A DNA stretch of 8,897 bases, from positions 1 to 8,897 of the forward strand of contig JAEORY010000138.1 of NCBI GenBank assembly GCA_016840645.1, in the 5' to 3' direction. The stretch is from Candidatus Borrarchaeota archaeon. Its GTDB lineage: Archaea; Asgardarchaeota; Sifarchaeia; Borrarchaeales; Borrarchaeaceae. Below the pieces are notes generated by a model. It was not told the origin of the DNA. It saw only the letters and a program-made list of their open reading frames with translations, and ran no database searches. Positions 1-8,897 of this stretch are shown piece after piece (position 1 is the first letter of the stretch; each line of letters opens with the position of its first letter). The position numbers and the translations under genes were made by a program.

Positions 1-789
1 GACATCGCTGTCGAGGCTTATGCAATAGTTTCAACCTTTGTAGACAATTATTTTGCTCAGGATCCAAAATATGGTGCATATAGATCTGGTATTACCAGGG
101 CTCCTGTAGGCACTTTCGTATGCCCCGTCCAAGAGTCATACTGGAAATACCTTATGGCTGTGATCAAGGAAATCCTCAATTTTCAAATAAGTGGTATAAT
201 ACTGATGGATAATCAATTTGCTAGACAAGAGTTTTGTTTTTGTGAAACATGTAGAAAAGAGTTTTCAGAATTAACGAACTTAGAGAGAGAATTCGTGTTT
301 GATACATTGGTCAATGATCCGGATATCCTTTCTCAATGGTATGAATGGCGAGCCAATAAAATAACTACATTCCTTTCTAACACTACAAGTTCAATCAAGG
401 AATTAAATCCAGATATTGAAGTCCTACTAACCGTCGATATAGATCCAGAAACCGATTATATTGAAGGGGCCAAAAAACATTTTGGACAAGACGTGATGAA
501 ATTATCTGATATTGCAGACCAATTATTATTCAATGTTTTACCACTTACACCAACACTCCCACAACCTGAAACCCCAGATTATGAAAGAGTTCTTTCAGAA
601 TTAGCTTTCACACGCGATTTAAATCGAATTGGAAGAAAGTATAGTATTTTCAATTGGGGAGTTACGGACCCAGAAATTAAGACTTTAGAAAAAATGAAAG
701 CAGACATTAATGCTACGTATCTGTTCCTTTTAGAGGGCTACCCTCAGACTTACAAGGAGAGACGAGAACTCCATCTTGGATTAACTTAA
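1..789 (+). CDS. TIM-barrel glycosidase-like protein, 3' part (5' end outside window)
   Basis: The frame is open from base 1 and the translation before the first internal ATG (base 154) is protein-like, with many aromatic residues, so I read this as the last 262 codons of a longer gene rather than a 211-residue protein. The segment GIILMDNQFAR followed by CFCETCRKEF (cysteines at about residues 79, 81 and 84 of the visible part) resembles a strand-plus-cysteine feature seen in glycoside-hydrolase-like TIM barrels, where a Gly-(hydrophobic)-Asp strand is followed by a CxCxxC-x3-F loop. The C-terminal part alternates strand-like and helix-like segments and stops at TAA without an extra domain. 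The N-terminal part and any signal peptide lie outside the window, so substrate and location cannot be given. The next gene is on the opposite strand, so the two end face to face. Family assignment is by pattern memory only; another barrel enzyme is possible. Confidence 0.6.
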   Translation, partial: DIAVEAYAIVSTFVDNYFAQDPKYGAYRSGITRAPVGTFVCPVQESYWKYLMAVIKEILNFQISGIILMDNQFARQEFCFCETCRKEFSELTNLEREFVFDTLVNDPDILSQWYEWRANKITTFLSNTTSSIKELNPDIEVLLTVDIDPETDYIEGAKKHFGQDVMKLSDIADQLLFNVLPLTPTLPQPETPDYERVLSELAFTRDLNRIGRKYSIFNWGVTDPEIKTLEKMKADINATYLFLLEGYPQTYKERRELHLGLT

Positions 790-923
790 CAAGATTCAAT
801 GTATGCTAATTGAATAAGACCACACTTCGTTGATTATCTACTGGACTTGGATAGAGTCTCGCCAATTGGATGATTCTTGAAAAACAGCTGATTAGGGAGC
901 AATTTAGAGTATTTAAGAACTTA

Positions 924-1637
924 TTAATCTCTAAGTTCAGCTCCACAACGAGAACAGAATTTATCATCAGGAGAGTTTCGCTTTCTACAACGTGGACATT
1001 TGCCAGAATAACTCAAGTTACGTAAACCTGTTTCTGTTGATGGAGGAACATTTTTTCTTCCATAACGGACTTCTTTTTGGTTCAAAGAACTATCCCACAT
1101 ACTATTGCTGTCGAAATCATTCCCTGAGAGAAATTCCTTAAGGAAATCCTCTGTATTTTCTTTTTCTGTCTTTGAATCTTCATTTGGATTACCAAAAAAG
1201 GATGAAAGATCTAAATTATCATCAACACGTGACGGTGAATTCTCACTGTAAGTGGTATGTGAATGCGTGTGTTCAAACTCTAGAAACAGTGAATGATGCT
1301 CGTCTTTAATACGAGAATACTCATCTAGCGAGAGATTAAGCATTTTTAATGTAGCGTCACGTTTATCACATTTATGAGTTCTAGGGCAACAATACGCTAA
1401 GCTGTGATAACATAAAAGAGAAAACACGTTTTTTCTTGTAGAACTATAAACCGGCTTAATAGGCATATCATTAAGTATCAATTGTGCAGTTTCATTATCG
1501 AAAGAAAGTGCGACTGACCTGTTAATTGCTTTTAGAAGTTCAATAGCAGGATACGCCTTTCCATTGATAATGATGTTTCCATCAACTTCAATTTCAGATT
1601 GAGTCATTTTTGTCGCCATCAAAAAGTGATTATACAT
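924..1637 (-). CDS. Unrecognised protein with Cys/His cluster and C-terminal zinc ribbon
   Basis: A protein of 237 residues that I do not recognise. Three parts are visible. Residues about 15-65 look like a small folded domain with a strand-rich start (VDGNIIINGKAYP) and a helix. Residues 76-94 hold C76, H78, C83, C84, H88 and C90 followed by KRDA, a plausible metal site, then a helix rich in Glu and His ending in HTHSH. Residues about 125-205 are acidic, Ser/Asn-rich and probably disordered. The tail is a classic rubredoxin-type zinc ribbon, C214-x2-C217-x10-C228-x2-C231, six residues from the end. Zinc ribbons of this kind mediate protein or nucleic-acid contacts. No signal peptide or membrane segment is seen, so it is probably cytoplasmic. 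The start at ATG 1637 is supported by a TATA-like box about 25 bases upstream, which would make the transcript leaderless; ATG 1619 is an alternative. It is the last gene of the minus-strand block. Confidence 0.75.
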   Translation of the reverse strand: MYNHFLMATKMTQSEIEVDGNIIINGKAYPAIELLKAINRSVALSFDNETAQLILNDMPIKPVYSSTRKNVFSLLCYHSLAYCCPRTHKCDKRDATLKMLNLSLDEYSRIKDEHHSLFLEFEHTHSHTTYSENSPSRVDDNLDLSSFFGNPNEDSKTEKENTEDFLKEFLSGNDFDSNSMWDSSLNQKEVRYGRKNVPPSTETGLRNLSYSGKCPRCRKRNSPDDKFCSRCGAELRD

Positions 1638-1656
1638 TTACAAACTAAGATTGAAG

Positions 1657-1667
1657 TATTTAATATT
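1657..1667 (-). promoter_or_regulatory. TATA-like box for the zinc-ribbon gene
   Basis: On the minus strand this reads AATATTAAATA. Its centre is about 25 bases before the ATG at 1637, the usual distance from an archaeal TATA box to the transcription start, and no Shine-Dalgarno sequence precedes that ATG. Together these suggest a leaderless mRNA beginning at or next to the start codon, and hence transcription independent of the cooC-like gene upstream. Inferred from spacing only. Confidence 0.45.
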
Positions 1668-1766
1668 CGTATTATCTCTAGCAATACGTTAGATATACCT
1701 GAAATGAATTAATCCTAGTAAAAATCTAGATGTTCAATACATCAATTCTGCTCGATAACTCTTATT

Positions 1767-2558
1767 TCACTGAGGAGCGAGTTTCTTTTCTAGTATTTCT
1801 TTGATGTTTTGAATCGCAACGAGCGCTGGACATTCTGGTGCAAAGTCAATAGGTGCAATACCTATGATATCAGATTGGATAATGGCAGGATCTCTGGGAA
1901 TGATACCAAGTAATTCTAAATCAGATCCTATTGCTGCATTTTTTATGAAGTTCTCTTCCTGCTCGTTAGATATCCTATTCCCCACAATATAACGGCGGGG
2001 AACTCCAAGGCTTGCTCCAAGAGAATTAATTCTTTTTGCCAGATCTAATGATCTAGTTCCTGGTTCAACGACGGTTATCATTGCATCTACACCCTTGCTT
2101 GTACCTCTTCCTAAATGCTCAAGACCTGCATAAAAATCTATTATGACAATATCATCACGTTTTAGAATTATGTGGCTTAGCAATGCGCGCAAAAGAGTGC
2201 TTTCTGGACAAATACAGCCACCTCCAGCAGTCTCTATTGTTCCAAGTACAATAAGTTTTGCCCCATCATGTCTAACATGATACTTATCAGGTATATCATC
2301 AACCCGCGGATTCAAAATAAACATTCCTGATGTTCCTGCAGGGACTCCTGTCCTTTCTTCAACAAGTTTTTTCATTTCACCAATGGGGGTAGGAAGTTCA
2401 GTTTTAGAAATTCCCATTGTAGCATGTAAATTCATATTTGGGTCTGCATCAACAGCAAGAACATTTTTACCATCTTTCGCAAATAATCTTGCTAAAGTTC
2501 CCGCTAAAAAGGTCTTTCCTACACCCCCTTTGCCAACGATAGCTAGTTTAAAAGACAT
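1767..2558 (-). CDS. cooC: CooC-type MinD/ParA-family ATPase (CODH nickel-insertion accessory protein family)
   Basis: A 263-residue P-loop ATPase of the CooC branch of the MinD/NifH-like family. In characterised members, ATP-driven dimerisation goes with nickel binding and maturation of the Ni-Fe-S C-cluster of carbon monoxide dehydrogenase. Visible motifs: deviant Walker A GKGGVGKT (residues 9-16) with signature Lys10, switch I DADPN (37-41), the CooC-type CxC at C115/C117 inside GGGCICPE, which in CooC binds metal at the dimer interface, and the Walker B region VIIDFYAGLEHLGRGT (138-153), which is characteristic of CooC rather than MinD. Length matches CooC (about 250-260). I chose ATG 2558 because GGAAGG lies seven bases upstream; the frame also opens at TTG 2573, but that codon is interlocked with this ribosome-binding site. 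It starts 58 bases after the E1 stop region on the same strand, with only 46 bases between the two genes. No CODH gene is in the window, so its client enzyme is inferred. Confidence 0.88.
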   Translation of the reverse strand: MSFKLAIVGKGGVGKTFLAGTLARLFAKDGKNVLAVDADPNMNLHATMGISKTELPTPIGEMKKLVEERTGVPAGTSGMFILNPRVDDIPDKYHVRHDGAKLIVLGTIETAGGGCICPESTLLRALLSHIILKRDDIVIIDFYAGLEHLGRGTSKGVDAMITVVEPGTRSLDLAKRINSLGASLGVPRRYIVGNRISNEQEENFIKNAAIGSDLELLGIIPRDPAIIQSDIIGIAPIDFAPECPALVAIQNIKEILEKKLAPQ

Positions 2559-2565
2559 TAGATTT

Positions 2566-2571
2566 CCTTCC
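2566..2571 (-). promoter_or_regulatory. Ribosome-binding site deciding the cooC start
   Basis: GGAAGG on the minus strand, seven bases before ATG 2558. It overlaps the codons that would follow the alternative TTG start at 2573, so it argues for the shorter protein beginning MSFKLAIVGKGG. Confidence 0.65.
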
Positions 2572-2604
2572 AATTAATCTTGATTCTAGAATAAAATTAT
2601 AATA

Positions 2605-3615
2605 TCAAACAGAATTGTGAGTTAAGACAACTCTTATTCGTATCGGTTTAGCCACAGTTGCATCTATAACGAAGATCGGTGCATACTCAGATATTTCCGC
2701 TTCAGTAATGCTCATTTCGTCATCAACTATTTTTGTTCCCACTATCATTGTAGGATCAGCGAGACCGTAGATCAATGCTATTCTTTTCCGTAGTTCGCCT
2801 ATTTTTTCATCTCCTTCTGCGAAATATCTTAATTCATCAAGTTTCCACTTTTCACCACATACAAAGCAATCTAATCTTCTAGTAAGATCAAGTTTTGTGA
2901 ATTCTTCAGAAAGACCATCGTAAAAGAGATATCCAATGGGATTACCATGCCCTAATAGCAGTTTCACAATTTCTTGGCTCATAATCCCTCCAATTACGGC
3001 AGAAATCGTTCCAACAGATGGAAATACCTCCTTCGGTTCATCCCTTTCCTTCTTCCTCGGTTCACCAGGGAGTGTACAAACTTGCTGTAATCGAGTTTCG
3101 GGGATTAGGGGTTGACATTCAAGACATGCAGAATCTGACCCAGGGATAATTACCTGAACATGACCAAAGAATTCGTAAAGACCTGCATCAATCAGTGGTT
3201 TTCCCACAGAAACACACATTGAATTTAACCAGCGGCGTGCCTCAAAGGTATCTAAAGAGGAAACAATTAGATCGCACGTTGCATAAATGCTTTCTGGAAT
3301 GTCCTCTATCTTTTGATTAAAAGCAATAACATCGACAGAAGGATTTAGTACCTTAAGATGTTCTTTTGCAACCAAAGCTTTTGATTTTCCAATATCCTCG
3401 TCACGGAATAGCCATTGACGATTCAAATTTGAAAGTTCAACAGTATCGAAATCCACAATTACCAATTTACCAATACCCATCATAGTCAATATCTCTGATA
3501 CAACACATCCAAGTGCTCCGATTCCAGCTAGAAAAATTGTAGCATTAGAAATCTTTCTTTGATCCCAGTTCGGCATTATAGTTTGCCTATGATATCTGTC
3601 GCTATTTTTGCTCAT
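2605..3615 (-). CDS. E1-like ubiquitin-activating enzyme (ThiF/UBA fold) with probable C-terminal ubiquitin-fold domain
   Basis: A 336-residue E1-family enzyme, expected to adenylate the C-terminus of a ubiquitin-like protein and pass it via a thioester to the neighbouring E2. Residues 7-11 (RYHRQ) and the nucleotide loop GIGALG (31-36) open the ThiF fold. VDFDTVELSNLNRQ (54-67) contains the conserved Asp, Asn, Arg and Gln of the adenylation site, with K79 and D122 further on. Two CxxC pairs, C164/C167 and C250/C253, form the structural zinc site. C180 in VCTLPGEPR matches the catalytic-cysteine context of eukaryotic UBA2/UBA3 (CT...P), which sets it apart from MoeB/ThiF sulfur-carrier enzymes. 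Residues about 268-333 look like a beta-grasp tail (KIGELRKRIALIYGL) similar to the E2-recruiting ubiquitin-fold domain. I chose ATG 3615 because GGTGA stands five bases upstream; GTG 3624 is the alternative. It follows the E2 gene by 124 bases on the same strand. Confidence 0.9.
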   Translation of the reverse strand: MSKNSDRYHRQTIMPNWDQRKISNATIFLAGIGALGCVVSEILTMMGIGKLVIVDFDTVELSNLNRQWLFRDEDIGKSKALVAKEHLKVLNPSVDVIAFNQKIEDIPESIYATCDLIVSSLDTFEARRWLNSMCVSVGKPLIDAGLYEFFGHVQVIIPGSDSACLECQPLIPETRLQQVCTLPGEPRKKERDEPKEVFPSVGTISAVIGGIMSQEIVKLLLGHGNPIGYLFYDGLSEEFTKLDLTRRLDCFVCGEKWKLDELRYFAEGDEKIGELRKRIALIYGLADPTMIVGTKIVDDEMSITEAEISEYAPIFVIDATVAKPIRIRVVLTHNSV

Positions 3616-3620
3616 TTTAA

Positions 3621-3625
3621 TCACC
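3621..3625 (-). promoter_or_regulatory. Ribosome-binding site deciding the E1 start
   Basis: GGTGA on the minus strand, five bases before ATG 3615. It overlaps the upstream in-frame GTG (3622-3624), making that codon an unlikely start. Confidence 0.6.
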
Positions 3626-3659
3626 GAAGGAAGACACCGTCATCCCGAGAGATTCTTAA

Positions 3660-3670
3660 TTTTAAATTAT
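3660..3670 (-). promoter_or_regulatory. TATA-like box for the E1 gene
   Basis: On the minus strand this reads ATAATTTAAAA, centred about 50 bases upstream of ATG 3615. A start of transcription some 25 bases downstream would give a leader of roughly 25 bases carrying the GGTGA ribosome-binding site. This suggests E1 can be transcribed on its own as well as with E2. Inferred from composition and spacing. Confidence 0.4.
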
Positions 3671-3693
3671 CAGATTAGCGATTATTAAATCTT

Positions 3694-3698
3694 AAAAA
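3694..3698 (-). terminator. Possible T-tract terminator after the E2 gene
   Basis: A run of five T on the minus strand inside the near-palindrome CTTATTTTTAAG, about 45 bases beyond the E2 stop. Archaeal RNA polymerases often stop at short T-runs without a hairpin. The run is short and the region is AT-rich, so this is tentative. Confidence 0.25.
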
Positions 3699-3739
3699 TA
3701 AGATGCGCAATGGGTGTGCATTTATTTTGAGAGAGTTTA

Positions 3740-4201
3740 TCAACTTTGTAATTTTTCCCAAGTAGCATATTGCTCATTAAAATCTTTTACAGTTTTCTTG
3801 AAGCGTTCTAGATCATTTTCCATCTGATTAGCAGCAGAAGTGTTTAGAGGATCTGCAGGGTTTGGTGCTGCCAATAATATTCTAAGAGTCTCAATGACAT
3901 CAACTAAGCTATTCGATGGGGACCAATCCTTACCTAATATTCCAACACAAACTTTTTCTTTGTAAATATTCGGATGCCAGATTTCTGTGAGCCATCTTAC
4001 ATGTGGAGGTGCAAAAGGAAATTGCCTAGGGATTTCAATTTCGACCTGAAAAACCCCACCTTCGTACAATTCAGTACCAAGGATGAAACCATGCCATTTG
4101 CGAATATCCCCTTTTTCAGGTTTGAACCCAGGTTCTTCACTTTTAACATGTTTTGCTTCATAAGCCAGCCTGGCCCAATAATCTTCATCAGATAAGCTCA
4201 A
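3740..4201 (-). CDS. E2-like ubiquitin-conjugating enzyme (UBC fold)
   Basis: A 153-residue protein with a complete UBC core of normal E2 length (about 150). It should receive a ubiquitin-like modifier from E1 on its active-site cysteine and transfer it to lysines, usually with an E3. Visible: helix 1 (WARLAYEAKHV, 9-19), the strand GGVFQVEIEIP (48-58), the FPFAPPHV proline turn (61-68), the HPN motif at 76-78, catalytic C85 in VCVGIL, the W93-S-P95 segment, and the LLAAPNPADPLN stretch (109-120) that follows the active site in canonical E2s. All key residues are present, so it is probably active. There is no membrane anchor or extra domain. The start is TTG at 4201 with GGGGG five bases upstream; no ATG or GTG gives a full helix 1. 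It is the first gene of the minus-strand block and lies directly before E1. Confidence 0.92.
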   Translation of the reverse strand: MSLSDEDYWARLAYEAKHVKSEEPGFKPEKGDIRKWHGFILGTELYEGGVFQVEIEIPRQFPFAPPHVRWLTEIWHPNIYKEKVCVGILGKDWSPSNSLVDVIETLRILLAAPNPADPLNTSAANQMENDLERFKKTVKDFNEQYATWEKLQS

Positions 4202-4206
4202 CTAAT

Positions 4207-4211
4207 CCCCC
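4207..4211 (-). promoter_or_regulatory. G-rich ribosome-binding site for the TTG start of the E2 gene
   Basis: GGGGG on the minus strand, followed by A, five bases before TTG 4201. It matches a canonical GGAGG site imperfectly, but it is the only purine-rich stretch near the start and supports the unusual TTG codon. The TATA-like ATATTAAAT at 4221-4229 is only about 24 bases from the TTG, so a near-leaderless transcript that omits this site is also possible. Confidence 0.4.
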
Positions 4212-4220
4212 TAGATTTAG

Positions 4221-4229
4221 ATTTAATAT
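4221..4229 (-). promoter_or_regulatory. TATA-like box for the E2 gene
   Basis: ATATTAAAT on the minus strand, centred about 24 bases from TTG 4201. It closely resembles the box at 1657-1667 before the zinc-ribbon gene (shared ATATTAAAT), which hints that both ends of the block use similar promoters. If used, the transcript would begin at or next to the start codon. An AT-rich stretch slightly further upstream (about 4230-4240) could serve instead. Confidence 0.4.
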
Positions 4230-4345
4230 GATAATTTTTTGAGATAGGTCCTAACAATATTCTCTAAAGATGCTAACATTATGAACATCATTTCAATTTA
4301 TTATGAAGATTTCGTTAGTGTATTTATTATTCCTGTGGGAAGATA

Positions 4346-5587
4346 ATGGAAGAAGATATCGCATACTCTAAAAACGATCGCAACTTCTGTTTAGTTGTTG
4401 CGTTCAATGCAAGACCCATTGCAACTTCTGCTAAAAAAGCAAATTATGATGTCCTTGCGATTGACTTTTTTGGAGATTTAGATCTTAGATCTGTTGCAGA
4501 ACATGTTTTTTCAGTTATATGGCAAAGAAAACGTCATCCAATAAGAAGAAAATTTCTCCGCCCAATTTCTGAATACATGTGCCTCCTAGCCGAAACAATG
4601 GCTGATGATTATTATGGAAAGATAAAATTCTTGCTTATAGGCAGCGGTTTTGATGATGAACCTAAAATATGGCAACGATTTGGTAAAATTGCACCTGTTA
4701 TTGGAAATACTCAAGAGATAATAAGTCATTCGGATCGCTTAAGTATCTATAGATTAGCCTCGAAATTAGGAATCGAATGCCCACGTACTATGGAAGTAAA
4801 AGAAAAAGAGGAAGCACTTGAAATTGCAAAAAATATTGGTTATCCAATTGTACTCACTACGCCAAGAAGCGCAGGCGGACTCTTTGTTAAATTAATTACA
4901 AATTTAGATGAGCTTCATAGGGCATATAACGAGTTAAGAAATTCGGGGAAAAAGATTCTTATTCAAGAATTTATTCAAGGCATTGATGCAAGTTGTTCAG
5001 TGCTTGGAACAGGTAAGGATTGTCAAGCTATTTCGGTAACAGAACAAGTAATTGGAAGATCAGAACTAGGAGTTTCCATGCCCTTTGGCTATTGCGGAAA
5101 TATTGTTCCACTAAAAAATTCAGCAACAGTTATTGAGAATATAAAAAGCATTTCTGAAGAATTAGGTTCAAAATTAGGACTCTTAGGTTCGAATGGATTC
5201 GATTTTGTTATTAGAGGTGATCAACCGTATTTAATCGAACTTAATCCACGATTTCAAGGCTCTCTCGAATGTATAGAAGCAGTTACGTCATCAAATCTAG
5301 TAAAATTGCACATTGAGGCGTATAATGGCAATTTACCTGAAAAGTCTCTTGAATCAAAAGGTTATGCCGTAAAAATGATACTATACGCAAAATACAGAAC
5401 AATTGTTCCGAATCTGTCACATTTGCCTCATATTGTGGATGTGCCGGTTGAAGGGATTATCCTTGAACCTTCAAATCCGGTTTGCACAGTTTTCATTACT
5501 GGAACAGAAAGAGAAATAACAATAGAAAAAGCTAAAATACTTGCGGATAATGTCTACAGACAACTTATCCCTGCACCAAAATCATGA
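4346..5587 (+). CDS. ATP-grasp ligase, archaeal COG2232 type, substrate unknown
   Basis: A 413-residue ATP-grasp protein. Such enzymes join a carboxylate, activated as acyl phosphate, to an amine, thiol or similar nucleophile. The N-terminal segment VVAFNARPIATSAKKANYDVLAIDFFGDLDL is the pre-ATP-grasp domain as in the archaeal COG2232 proteins, related to but distinct from biotin carboxylase and MfnD-type ligases. The ATP-grasp part follows: glycine-rich loop around 173-178 (PRSAGG), IQEFIQG with the adenine-binding Glu near 208, and the metal-binding ELNPRFQGS (E298, N300). A domain of about 90 residues follows. Oddity: where most relatives have a lysine (VKP) just before the glycine-rich loop, this protein has LTTP (170-173), so the usual first ATP-contacting Lys is missing or shifted. 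The start at ATG 4346 has GGGA five bases before it. Its stop overlaps the stop of the convergent reductase gene. Soluble; substrate cannot be named. Confidence 0.82.
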   Translation: MEEDIAYSKNDRNFCLVVAFNARPIATSAKKANYDVLAIDFFGDLDLRSVAEHVFSVIWQRKRHPIRRKFLRPISEYMCLLAETMADDYYGKIKFLLIGSGFDDEPKIWQRFGKIAPVIGNTQEIISHSDRLSIYRLASKLGIECPRTMEVKEKEEALEIAKNIGYPIVLTTPRSAGGLFVKLITNLDELHRAYNELRNSGKKILIQEFIQGIDASCSVLGTGKDCQAISVTEQVIGRSELGVSMPFGYCGNIVPLKNSATVIENIKSISEELGSKLGLLGSNGFDFVIRGDQPYLIELNPRFQGSLECIEAVTSSNLVKLHIEAYNGNLPEKSLESKGYAVKMILYAKYRTIVPNLSHLPHIVDVPVEGIILEPSNPVCTVFITGTEREITIEKAKILADNVYRQLIPAPKS

Positions 5588-6805
5588 TCTGAAGCGCGCA
5601 AAGATCATTTTCATAAGAAACAAAGGGTGTTTCAATGCATACCATTTAAAATCACTCGGCGAAACCTCGCCGCGCATATATTTTAAAAGGTGATCACCAA
5701 AATCCCGGTTTTTAAGAGCTGTGTCGACAGTAAATTCCTGCTGATAATCAGTTGTTACCATATTCCTTCTTATGTTAAAGGTAGCCTTAAGTTCCTTTCC
5801 AATCTCTTTGTCGATCGCAATTTTATAGTTTTTTAGAAATCCTGCCGAAAAATCATTAACCTCAAGGGCATCTACAGCAGTTTTCCCCGCTATTTCGCCC
5901 GACATCATTGAGTAATAAAGGCCCTCACCATTTACGAAGTCGACATTTCCAGCAGCTTCTCCAGTAACCATAAATCCGTCTCCATAGATTTTGCTAATGA
6001 CACCAGGGAAACTGATCATAGCGGCTTGAGGATAAAGTATTTTTGCACGAACAAGTTTTTTACTTGCTATTGGATGACGTTTTATGAAACCATCCAATCG
6101 CTGTCTTAATCGTATATCCTTATCTTTGCAACATTCCAGCCAAGTGCCCAAACCTACTGAAACTATATTTTTTTTAGGAAAAATCCAAGCATAGCCTCCA
6201 GGTATTATATTTGATCCATAATAGATCTCCAGTTGATCACCAATTCGGTCATCAATGAGTTTTTCATCTATTGCCATCTGATATTGATAACAAATTGTTT
6301 GAGAGCGTTCATCATTTGTCAATAAGCCAAGTTTTTTAGTTAATATACTTGGTGTTCCACTTGCGATAATTATTATATCTCCATAAATATCGAGTGATTC
6401 GCCCTGCGATTTCGCTTTTACCCCTTTAACAAATCCATTTTCGATAATTACATCAATGGCACGCGTATTTTCCTTGATTTCAGCTCCTTGATCGATAGCT
6501 AACTCGGCAAGCGTTTTATCAAGCTTTGCTCGCATAGTTGTGGCGACAATACGTTCAGGATACTCAAGTGTAACTGTTTTACATTTTGGGGAGCATAAGA
6601 ATAGTTTATAACAAGATCGGTCAAATATGTGCTCAGGAATTTGAAATCGTTGTATTGCACGCTCAGTTACACCGCCTGCACACGGTTTTTCCCTGTCAAG
6701 GCGATGTTTCTCAACAGCAATCACCTTAAGCCCTTTGTTAGCCATTTCTTTTGCAGTTGTTGAACCAGAAGGACCTGCCCCTACAACTATGACGTCGTAT
6801 TTCAC
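5582..6805 (-). CDS. FAD-dependent geranylgeranyl reductase family protein
   Basis: A 407-residue flavoprotein of the geranylgeranyl reductase (GGR) family. In archaea, members saturate the isoprenoid chains of membrane ether lipids. Visible: the Rossmann FAD motif VGAGPSG (8-14) with acidic E32 ending strand 2, the KPCAGGV motif (40-46) typical of GGR, a central PGGYAWIFPK segment matching the family's YxWxFPK signature, and the second FAD motif GDGFMVTGEAAGNVDFVNGEG. Length is normal for the family. The frame remains open to 7027, but codons before 6805 come from the adjacent insertion element, so I placed the start at GTG 6805, with GGGTGA four bases upstream and the normal N-terminus VKYDVIVVGAG. 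It converges with the ATP-grasp gene. Its original promoter was probably displaced by the element. Lipid reduction is the family expectation; a different flavin reductase role is possible. Confidence 0.85.
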   Translation of the reverse strand: MKYDVIVVGAGPSGSTTAKEMANKGLKVIAVEKHRLDREKPCAGGVTERAIQRFQIPEHIFDRSCYKLFLCSPKCKTVTLEYPERIVATTMRAKLDKTLAELAIDQGAEIKENTRAIDVIIENGFVKGVKAKSQGESLDIYGDIIIIASGTPSILTKKLGLLTNDERSQTICYQYQMAIDEKLIDDRIGDQLEIYYGSNIIPGGYAWIFPKKNIVSVGLGTWLECCKDKDIRLRQRLDGFIKRHPIASKKLVRAKILYPQAAMISFPGVISKIYGDGFMVTGEAAGNVDFVNGEGLYYSMMSGEIAGKTAVDALEVNDFSAGFLKNYKIAIDKEIGKELKATFNIRRNMVTTDYQQEFTVDTALKNRDFGDHLLKYMRGEVSPSDFKWYALKHPLFLMKMIFARFRS

Positions 6806-6809
6806 CGTT

Positions 6810-6815
6810 TCACCC
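6810..6815 (-). promoter_or_regulatory. Ribosome-binding site deciding the reductase start
   Basis: GGGTGA on the minus strand, four bases before GTG 6805. It lies between the gene and the inferred left end of the insertion element, so the translation start seems to have survived the insertion. Confidence 0.5.
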
Positions 6816-6844
6816 GCGGTTTTATAATCCTCTCCGCAAGAAGA

Positions 6845-6864
6845 CCCCCCAACTTGTTGGGGGG
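6845..6864 (+). repeat. Left-end hairpin of the IS element
   Basis: Perfect nine-base-pair stem, CCCCCCAAC with GTTGGGGGG, around a TT loop. It sits about 20 bases inside the inferred left end and matches the right-end hairpin in shape, loop and preceding AAG, fitting a TnpA recognition hairpin. On the opposite strand it would fall about 40 bases upstream of the reductase GTG, in that gene's leader. Confidence 0.7.
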
Positions 6865-6914
6865 GATGAAGTGCGTGTGTTACGTGTTTCACTTTCACCG
6901 TAGTGTCCCCCAGC

Positions 6915-6922
6915 TTTAAATA
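6915..6922 (+). promoter_or_regulatory. TATA-like box for tnpB
   Basis: TTTAAATA, 57 bases before the tnpB ATG. Transcription starting about 25 bases downstream would leave a leader of some 35-40 bases. The sequence is nearly symmetrical, so it might also fire leftward into the reductase gene. Confidence 0.4.
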
Positions 6923-6979
6923 GGTTTTTGCGTATAGTAACTCTCGTGACATGAATCTCAGGGGAACACAGGGATACGT

Positions 6980-8131
6980 ATGATGACACGGACGTACAAA
7001 TATCGCTTGTATCCGACCACACACCAACAGACTACGTTAACGCAATGGCTTACTACCTGTCGTCTGTTGTATAATAAATCTTTAGCAGAACGAAAAGACG
7101 CCTGGCACACTCATCAACACTCAGTCAGTTATTATGAGCAAGCCACCCACTTGAACGCTGCAAAACAGACCAACCCGTGTTTGAAGGGGGTTCATTCTCA
7201 GGTACTTCAAGACGTGCTAAGAAGACTGGATAAGACCTTCAACAACTTTTTTAGGCGTCTTAAGAAGGGGGAAAAAGCCGGTTACCCACGATTTAAAGGA
7301 ACATACCGGTATGATTCATTCACTTACCCGCAAAGTGGGTTCTCCCTCGAAAAGAACAACAAGAAACTCCGGCTCTCGAAAATTGGAAGTATTACCATCA
7401 AATTACACCGCCCGATACCTGCAGAAGGAGTTATCAAGACCTGTACTATTACACGCGATGTCGACCACTGGTATGCCTGTTTTGCAGTAGAACTGCCTGA
7501 TCCCGCTCCTGGCCCTCAGCAAAGAGGAATAAAGAAGGCGATAGGGGTGGATGTCGGGCTGAAGAGTTTACTGACGTTACATACTGGAGACACCATAGAC
7601 AACCCTCGCTGGTTGAGACACTCCGAGAAGAAAGTAGCCAAAGAACAGCGAAGAAAAGATAGAAAGCAGAAAGGGTCAAATAACCGTCACAAGCAGAACA
7701 GGAAGGTAGCACAGCTACACCGGAAGATATGTAACCAGCGAAAGGACTTTCATCACAAGCTCAGTCGGCAACTGGTCGATAGCTATGACCTGATTGTGTA
7801 TGAACACTTACAGATTACCAACATGGTGAAGAACCATCATGTAGCCAAGTCAATTAGTGATGCAGGCTGGGGTCAACTCATGTGCTTTACTGAGTACAAA
7901 GCGGAGGAAGCTGGTACTCTGGTAGAATATGTGAGTGCCTATAACACCACACAACTGTGTAGTAGGTGTGGGAAACGTGTACCTAAAACATTGGCAACCC
8001 GTATCCACCGCTGTCCTTACTGTGGTCTTGATTTAACCAGAGATCATAACTCTGCCATCACGATTTTACACCGATCACGCTACTATGTAGCATCACGATC
8101 AGGGCAGGAACTGCCCGTAGAGCCTGTTTGA
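6980..8131 (+). CDS. tnpB: TnpB, RNA-guided nuclease of IS200/IS605 elements
   Basis: A 383-residue TnpB of typical length. In studied relatives TnpB binds an omega-RNA from the element's right end and cuts matching DNA next to a short TAM, helping the element persist. The N-terminal part starts RTYKYRLYPT and continues with the wedge/recognition segment. The RuvC-like domain has D191 in GVDVG, E275 in YEHLQ and D355 in TRDHNSA, so the catalytic triad is complete. A zinc finger, C327-x2-C330 and C345-x2-C348, lies between the second and third RuvC motifs, as usual. A basic Lys/Arg-rich stretch lies at about 215-240. Two ATGs stand together (6980 and 6983); I used the first, without a strong ribosome-binding site. 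The C-terminal codons overlap a predicted stem of the omega-RNA. Higher GC than its neighbours marks it as acquired with the element. Apparently intact and probably functional. Confidence 0.93.
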   Translation: MMTRTYKYRLYPTTHQQTTLTQWLTTCRLLYNKSLAERKDAWHTHQHSVSYYEQATHLNAAKQTNPCLKGVHSQVLQDVLRRLDKTFNNFFRRLKKGEKAGYPRFKGTYRYDSFTYPQSGFSLEKNNKKLRLSKIGSITIKLHRPIPAEGVIKTCTITRDVDHWYACFAVELPDPAPGPQQRGIKKAIGVDVGLKSLLTLHTGDTIDNPRWLRHSEKKVAKEQRRKDRKQKGSNNRHKQNRKVAQLHRKICNQRKDFHHKLSRQLVDSYDLIVYEHLQITNMVKNHHVAKSISDAGWGQLMCFTEYKAEEAGTLVEYVSAYNTTQLCSRCGKRVPKTLATRIHRCPYCGLDLTRDHNSAITILHRSRYYVASRSGQELPVEPV

Positions 8132-8208
8132 CATGTCCCGTTGGGGAATGGATGATTCAGGAAGCCAGCCTACTTGTAGGGTGGTAGTTCACATACAATA
8201 AGCTAATC
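8095..8208 (+). ncRNA. Probable omega-RNA (reRNA) of the tnpB element with its guide
   Basis: The 3' end of tnpB and the right end of the element contain three stems in a row: GGGCAG/CTGCCC with a GAA loop (8102-8116), TCCC/GGGA (8136-8147), and the nine-position right-end stem with one G-G mismatch (8165-8184). They end at TAGTTCAC (8185-8192). In characterised TnpB systems the scaffold ends at the element border and the next ~16 bases of host flank serve as guide; here that would be ATACAATAAGCTAATC (8193-8208). The 5' edge is a guess and the RNA may begin further inside tnpB. Its transcript could come from the tnpB mRNA by processing. Confidence 0.5.
8165..8184 (+). repeat. Right-end hairpin of the IS element
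   Basis: Stem CCAGCCTAC with GTAGGGTGG around a TT loop; eight of nine positions pair, with one G-G mismatch. It resembles the left-end hairpin (same loop, same preceding AAG) and is followed directly by TAGTTCAC, the likely right cleavage site. Confidence 0.65.
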
Positions 8209-8230
8209 ATATTTGAAAGTAACGGTGCTA

Positions 8231-8235
8231 GGAGG
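8231..8235 (+). promoter_or_regulatory. Ribosome-binding site deciding the deacetylase start
   Basis: GGAGG, seven bases before GTG 8243. It favours GTG 8243 over the in-frame ATG at 8261, which is too far away for this site. Confidence 0.7.
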
Positions 8236-8242
8236 ACAAGGG

Positions 8243-8897
8243 GTGAACGTTGTTGGGATAATGTACTCAGAAGATCTCACAACATATGATTTTGGAGAAG
8301 GTCATCCCTTCCGAGGGAAACGATTTAGTGACTTTCTGATCACATTTAAACAATTAGGCCTAGATGAACTCCCACATCTTAAAATCATCCAATCGAGCCC
8401 TTGTTCTTTTGAAGATTTATTGCTTGTTCACAATGAAGAATATCTTGAGATGATAAGACAAGGAGAAAAAAGATATGAACCGCTCTCATTAGACACTCCA
8501 CTTCGACCAGGCATGTTTGAAGCTGCAAAGCACGTTGTTGGTGCGTCTTTAAATGCTTTAAAATATGTACTCGAAGGAAATGCTGCGGTTGCTGTGGGTT
8601 TAGGAGGAGGAATGCATCATGCATTCCCAAACTCAGGTGGTGGATTTTGCATCGTGAACGATGTTGCTATTTGTGCAGAATACCTTAGAAAAAAGGAGAA
8701 AATAAAGCGAATCTTGATTTTAGATACAGATGCTCATTATGGAGATGGAACAGCGAATATTTTTTATGAGACACCTGAGGTATTATTCATTTCTATCCAC
8801 CAAAATCCTTCTACACTTTACCCAGGTACGGGTTATATAAGAGAAGTAGGTAAAGGAGATGGAGAAGGATACAATGTGAATATCCCCATGCCAGTTT
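8243..8897 (+). CDS. Histone deacetylase/AcuC-family protein, 5' part (3' end outside window)
   Basis: The first 218 codons of a zinc-dependent deacetylase of the arginase/deacetylase fold. The family removes acetyl groups from lysines of proteins, from polyamines, or acts in acetyl-CoA synthetase control (AcuC). Visible: GHPF with R24/R27 near the N-terminus, catalytic histidine pair H125-H126 in GGGMHHA, the GFCIVNDVAI segment (134-143), and LDTDAHYGDG (160-169), in which D163 and H165 are the first two zinc ligands and D161 belongs to the charge relay/potassium site. ISIHQ and YPGTG follow in the usual order. The third zinc ligand (Asp) and the active-site Tyr lie beyond the window. The GTG start is set by GGAGG seven bases upstream. 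It begins 50 bases after the right end of the tnpB element and is divergent from the reductase gene. Whether it acts on chromatin or metabolites cannot be told. Confidence 0.92.
   Translation, partial: MNVVGIMYSEDLTTYDFGEGHPFRGKRFSDFLITFKQLGLDELPHLKIIQSSPCSFEDLLLVHNEEYLEMIRQGEKRYEPLSLDTPLRPGMFEAAKHVVGASLNALKYVLEGNAAVAVGLGGGMHHAFPNSGGGFCIVNDVAICAEYLRKKEKIKRILILDTDAHYGDGTANIFYETPEVLFISIHQNPSTLYPGTGYIREVGKGDGEGYNVNIPMPV

Follow-up and report, generated by a model that had tools for sequence, protein, structure and literature searches.

Gene content of the locus

The 8,897-nucleotide stretch analysed here, referred to as the window, comes from Candidatus Borrarchaeota archaeon (assembly GCA_016840645.1, contig JAEORY010000138.1, positions 1 to 8,897). 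It carries the genes for a ubiquitin-conjugating enzyme (E2), a ubiquitin-activating enzyme (E1) and CooC, an ATPase for the nickel maturation of carbon monoxide dehydrogenase (CODH). The open reading frame (ORF) list and Pfam searches placed all three genes on the minus strand, as follows.

3740..4201, minus strand: E2 ubiquitin-conjugating enzyme, 153 amino acids (aa), TTG start (PF00179; kept in the close relatives G001-G004)
2605..3624, minus strand: E1 ubiquitin-activating enzyme, single-chain and UBA3-like, 339 aa, alternative ATG at 3615 (Pfam, PDB sequences, structural model)
2559..2604, minus strand: E1-CooC gap, 46 bp, with a Shine-Dalgarno-like GGAAGG (5-sequence alignment)
1767..2573, minus strand: CooC-type nickel ATPase, TTG start at 2573, likelier ATG at 2558 (Pfam, PDB, alignment)

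An earlier note on this DNA had read from the letters a complete E2, a complete E1 with a UBA2/UBA3-like context of the catalytic cysteine and, 46 bases further on the same strand, a CooC-family ATPase. All three identifications were borne out. The E2 product matched UQ_con (PF00179, E=6.9e-34), and hand counting on the translation located HPN at residues 76-78 and the catalytic cysteine at Cys85. The combination of HPN and a catalytic cysteine is the motif of ubiquitin E2s. The nearest solved sequences were an E2 domain of Toxoplasma (2f4z; the origin was taken from the Tg label), E2 N and E2 K.

The E1 product matched ThiF (PF00899, E=4.4e-63), and its nearest solved sequences were ubiquitin E1s followed by UBA3, the E1 of NEDD8. 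The alignment of 27 Asgard E1s showed that Cys183 was invariant (27/27), as were the CxxC pairs 167/170 and 253/256 and, in the adenylation domain, G34, G36, G39 and other residues. Cys183 is by its position the putative catalytic residue. The AlphaFold2 model of E1 (mean predicted local distance difference test score 84.6) showed a beta-grasp-like domain at the C-terminal end, starting near residue 265, with strand-helix-strand-strand-strand at 265-334, and this predicted ubiquitin-fold-like domain is of the E2-docking type by fold. The best Foldseek match of the model was UBA3 (3gzn_B) over the whole chain, with a template modelling score of 0.77 on the query and a root-mean-square deviation of 5.6 in an alignment of 404 columns including gaps. 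E1 shares the adenylation fold and the catalytic cysteine with UBA3, the catalytic subunit of the NEDD8 E1, and with UBA5, but differs from them in being one 339-aa chain and in its catalytic-cysteine segment, which is short and was modelled at low confidence.

The third product matched CbiA in Pfam (E=6.2e-17), and CooC1 (3kje) was the nearest solved sequence (E=1.1e-42), while no NCBIfam model reached its cut-off. It was 50-51% identical to three bacterial CooCs. The deviant Walker A motif GKGGVGKT and C115-x-C117, numbered from the ATG at 2558, were invariant in 15/15 aligned CooC sequences. The protein thus resembles the CooC of CODH, as treated in the available part of a review (PMC6006190), in the deviant Walker A, in the two conserved cysteines in C-x-C and, as judged from the close relatives, in the co-occurrence with CODH; the difference is that the gene here does not stand beside CODH genes. 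According to the same part of the review, CooC uses ATP to ready CODH for nickel or to pass nickel on.

Conservation of the gene order in close relatives

The nearest genomes were those of Ca. Borrarchaeum yapensis, Ca. Borrarchaeum weybense (G002), a Borrarchaeota metagenome-assembled genome (MAG) and Ca. Sifarchaeum (together G001-G004), with nucleotide identities of about 79-95% in the aligned parts. The order E2-E1-CooC was kept in 4/4, continued by the genes of a zinc-ribbon protein and a GHL10-like protein; deacetylase, geranylgeranyl reductase and ATP-grasp genes lay on the other side in all four. The left part of this layout sits on a second contig (L005) in B. yapensis, and the deacetylase gene is truncated by a contig end in Sifarchaeum. 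As the same order was found in all four close relatives, the E1-CooC adjacency is not peculiar to this genome and goes beyond a coincidence within a single assembly.

The gap from the E1 stop to the CooC ATG contained no indels among five sequences, and 74% of its columns were invariant, compared with 30% in the E2-E1 gap and 42% in the gap downstream of CooC in the same sequences. A gap this short and well conserved makes co-transcription of E1 and CooC likely in the Borrarchaeota/Sifarchaeum lineage. In the gap after CooC, a stretch of 19 bp is invariant and could represent a promoter of the zinc-ribbon gene, which may accordingly be expressed independently of the genes before it.

Location of the other ubiquitin-system genes

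Genes for ubiquitin, RING and JAMM proteins were not found among the window ORFs, and the window does not hold a complete Asgard ubiquitin locus. The earlier note was correct on this point, but the absence is odd only at the local scale, as all three were found elsewhere in the genome of the relative G002. Its contig C4 carries at 118-136 kb the genes for ubiquitin, a RING-like protein and a JAMM peptidase together with Vps23, Vps28 and Vps22-type genes of the endosomal sorting complexes required for transport (ESCRT); E2-E1 follow some 90 kb further along, at 215.5-217 kb. The ubiquitin exceeded the cut-off of PF00240 (42.9 bits) and ends in ...RTEGGNI, and the RING-like protein stayed slightly under the Pfam cut-offs (27.1 of 29.1 and 25.2 of 27.3 bits). 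Judged from these gene products, a complete ubiquitin system is present in G002 at the genome level.

Many other Asgard genomes had E2-E1 directly in or beside a cluster of ubiquitin, RING, Vps23, Vps28, Vps22, Vps25 and Vps4 genes. The available part of Hatano et al. 2022 (PMC9192718) describes E2-E1 in the ubiquitin/ESCRT cluster of other Asgard lineages and, for Lokiarchaeota, a split into a ubiquitin region and an ESCRT region. Homologues of E1, E2, ubiquitin, RING-like, JAMM, Vps23, Vps28, Vps22, Vps25 and Vps4 are the features in common with that system. The locus studied here differs from that cluster, as E2-E1 are separated from the ubiquitin, RING, JAMM and ESCRT genes and adjoin CooC. 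The word 'Borrarch' was absent from the main text of that paper.

A second E1-E2 locus was observed in Borrarchaeum (L104, at 690-704 kb of C4 in G002, and L014), with a JAMM gene in L104. PF00179 genes numbered four each in G001 and G002 and two each in G003 and G004. A later paper (PMC11354881) notes that Borrarchaeota have proteins homologous to human multidomain E2s.

Association of CooC with CODH and with E1

The co-occurrence of the genes was investigated in 195 Asgard genomes, which were sampled evenly from a larger group and are MAGs of unstated completeness. Presence was counted by bit-score cuts on the listed matches (CooC >=185, CdhA >=278, E1 >=220), with weaker or unlisted matches uncounted. 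Strong CooC was found in 95 genomes, strong E1 in 78 and both in 29. CdhA was present in 80 of the 95 CooC genomes (odds ratio 54; Fisher p 1.6e-28, overstated as the genomes are related), and E1 in 29 of them (odds ratio 0.46). As CooC tracks CdhA across genomes, the E1-linked gene would most simply be an ordinary CooC of CODH at another address.

The distance between CooC and CdhA was at most 10 kb in 24 of the 80 genomes with both, and none of these 24 CooC genes was E1-linked. In G026 the operon comprised CdhA-CdhB-CdhC-CdhD-CdhE by NCBIfam, with CdhD (TIGR00381) and CdhE (PRK04165) both above cut-off. The placement varied within the class of G010 (four genomes): G010 had CooC near E1, both G026 and G033 had it close to CdhA, and in G019, a genome in which CdhA was not found, it lay near a gene of the CdhE cluster. 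All four close relatives had CdhA above cut-off (TIGR00314) with CooC outside the CODH operon, CdhA being about 860 kb away in G002 and, in G001, G003 and G004, on a contig other than that of CooC. We take the Asgard CdhA to belong to clade A. Since the share of clade A CODH operons with CooC is 62% according to the available part of a genomic-context study (PMC13056359), a CooC outside the operon is not strange.

CooC and E1 shared a contig, with low coordinates within 1.5 kb, in seven of the 29 genomes with both (G001-G004, G009, G010 and G067). The comparison across Asgard genomes proposed earlier thus revealed a recurrent proximity, and direct same-strand adjacency was confined to G001-G004 and the window. 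A small opposite-strand gene lies between E1 and CooC in G067 and G009; it belongs to a recurrent family with five members in the loci read and no Pfam match. In G010, CooC is on the strand opposite to E1, with a Yip1-type gene between. The labels used for these lineages, Atabeyarchaeia-like (G009/G067) and Baldrarchaeia (G010), were assigned by similarity to named proteins. CooC and E1 were on different contigs in the other 22 genomes, and the E1 flanks of 18 of these showed no CooC, with several flanks truncated by contig ends; wide E1 flanks of G014, G032, G039 and G053 (short loci only for the last three) were not among the 18.

On the CooC tree, the E1-linked state needs four changes, a count based on the 28 genome rows among the 44 rows of a tree that excluded four distant CooC-like rows. 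A single clade of the E1-linked CooC rows together with three Atabeyarchaeia-like database rows was rejected by the approximately unbiased test (p=0.013), a result to be taken with caution owing to long branches. Contig G067:C250 may be mis-binned, because the search of the class of G067 (10 genomes) did not include G009 despite 77% identity between the G067 and G009 deacetylases, and because G067 has two CdhA copies.

Flanking genes and the wider neighbourhood

The remaining features of the window were as follows.

1..789, plus strand: C-terminal part of a GHL10-like protein (distant match, 20.4 bits, below the cut-off of 27.9)
924..1637, minus strand: protein with a Cys-rich N-terminal domain and a C-terminal zinc ribbon (Pfam/NCBIfam, 18-sequence alignment)
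4346..5587, plus strand: ATP-grasp protein, divergent from E2 (Pfam; kept in close relatives)
5582..6826, minus strand: geranylgeranyl reductase-family protein (NCBIfam; alignment with relatives)
8213..8896, plus strand: histone-deacetylase-fold protein, cut by the window end (Pfam; relatives)

The N-terminal domain of the zinc-ribbon protein bears a distant resemblance to methanogenesis marker 9 (TIGR03277, 28.7 bits, where the cut-off is 96.2). Four N-terminal cysteines (CxxSLAxCC...C) were invariant among 18 sequences, with a poorly conserved middle part. Matches at E<=0.001 were detected in 87 of the 195 Asgard genomes, the weakest partly through the zinc ribbon alone, and the gene often lies near ubiquitin/ESCRT genes in Asgard. 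The GHL10-like gene is also a recurrent neighbour, adjoining the gene of the family B DNA polymerase (PolB) in relatives. That the neighbourhood includes PolB and a leucyl-type tRNA synthetase favours a conservation of gene order over a single shared pathway.

Several further observations were made on these families. A histone-deacetylase-fold gene directly adjoins CooC in G067, G009, G010 and G146 (L048, L049, L050 and L076), making a CooC-deacetylase pair possible. The 1219-aa PolB of G002 (L065:15020-18676) contains a LAGLIDADG domain above cut-off, and its intein-splicing match is weak and falls under the cut-off; most other full PolB sequences were 868-892 aa, with 1363 aa in G067 and 1357 aa in G009. 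Gene family c18 (L062, L063, L064, L098; L060, L075, L076) occurs beside or near E1 in G146, G185, G157 and G107, with further occurrences close to PolB (G008) and to CooC (G107 and G146). One member matched the IFT52 GIFT domain (PF23355, 64 bits, above cut-off), and no NCBIfam model matched it.

A TnpB-bearing stretch of IS200/IS605 type occupies 6827-8192 between the deacetylase and reductase genes, with TnpB at 6980-8131 and no TnpA ORF anywhere in the window. The reductase ORF as called (to 7027) extends into this element, and relatives match from residue 68-70 onward. The site is empty in L002, L004 and L005, which align continuously across it; L003 also lacks the element and has about 390 unaligned bases there.

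Interpretation of the E1-CooC adjacency

These results point, with good probability, to ordinary ubiquitin enzymes and an ordinary CooC within an old Asgard neighbourhood, part of which, in one lineage, has probably turned secondarily into a transcription unit. The locus amounts to a displaced portion of a known system beside a known maturation factor, and separate jobs in ubiquitylation and in CODH maturation are the best-supported reading. E1 would adenylate ubiquitin at its C-terminal glycine, hold it on Cys183 and hand it to Cys85 of E2, and the RING protein, JAMM peptidase and ubiquitin from the second locus would complete the cycle. The cycle probably feeds ESCRT, the model favoured in the available part of Hatano et al. 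2022 (PMC9192718). CooC would act as an ordinary ATP-dependent nickel or folding chaperone of CODH (CdhA). The ubiquitin enzymes and CooC presumably lie together as members of one old neighbourhood, conserved only loosely, of PolB, GHL10-like, zinc-ribbon protein, E1-E2 and ubiquitin/ESCRT genes, in which CooC would be one of several inserted housekeeping genes. A rearrangement in Borrarchaeota/Sifarchaeum would then have put E1 and CooC 46 bp apart, where they are probably co-transcribed without a common pathway.

Several observations weigh against this interpretation. The short, conserved gap is one of them. E1-CooC proximity occurs in at least three lineages that are apart on both the CooC and E1 trees (Borrarchaeota/Sifarchaeum, G009/G067 and G010), and in G014, with E1 on another contig, CooC adjoins the zinc-ribbon gene inside the ubiquitin/ESCRT cluster; this recurrence together with the placement in G014 is more than drift alone predicts. 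The match between CooC and CdhA is imperfect, 15 genomes having strong CooC without CdhA and nine CdhA without strong CooC. Furthermore, no CooC was seen beside the CdhA-CdhB locus of G002, and the E1-linked copy may therefore be the one serving CODH.

A pure chance adjacency confined to Borrarchaeota/Sifarchaeum, unrelated to the other lineages, would agree with the restriction of direct same-strand adjacency to this group and with the varying linkage inside the class of G010. We consider it improbable, as CooC also lies within 1.5 kb of E1 in G009, G010 and G067 and in the ubiquitin/ESCRT cluster of G014.

The link between protein modification and metalloenzyme maturation raised in the earlier note did not gain support. 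Such a coupling would mean that ubiquitin/ESCRT controls the turnover or localisation of CODH/acetyl-CoA synthase (ACS) or of its maturation factor, for example by clearing nickel-free CODH, with E1-CooC co-transcription tying the two together. The recurrent proximity, the conserved gap and the presence of CdhA in all four close relatives are in its favour. Yet CooC goes with CdhA and not with E1 across the 195 genomes, lying near CdhA in 24 of 80, and is on a different contig from E1 in most genomes with both, with none in the 18 E1 flanks, some of them cut by contig ends. Moreover, a gene on the strand opposite to E1 intervenes in G009, G067 and G010, and the same neighbourhood contains PolB and the leucyl-type tRNA synthetase. 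A functional link between the ubiquitin enzymes and CooC is thus unlikely, and we give this coupling even less credence than chance. Least probable of all is its strongest form, an archaeal quality control of metalloenzymes in which immature CODH/ACS is removed or sorted by ubiquitylation together with ESCRT, this being the reason why some Asgard lineages co-transcribe the genes for ubiquitin activation and for the nickel maturation of CODH.

The locus draws attention to a second flank of the Asgard ubiquitin-ESCRT cluster that has been noticed less and recurs in several distant lineages; it consists of PolB, GHL10-like and zinc-ribbon protein genes, sometimes with CooC and a deacetylase. It also illustrates that a complete ubiquitin system can be hidden by a split locus. 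A functional E1-CooC link, if true, would connect anaerobic carbon metabolism with the precursor of ubiquitin signalling in eukaryotes.

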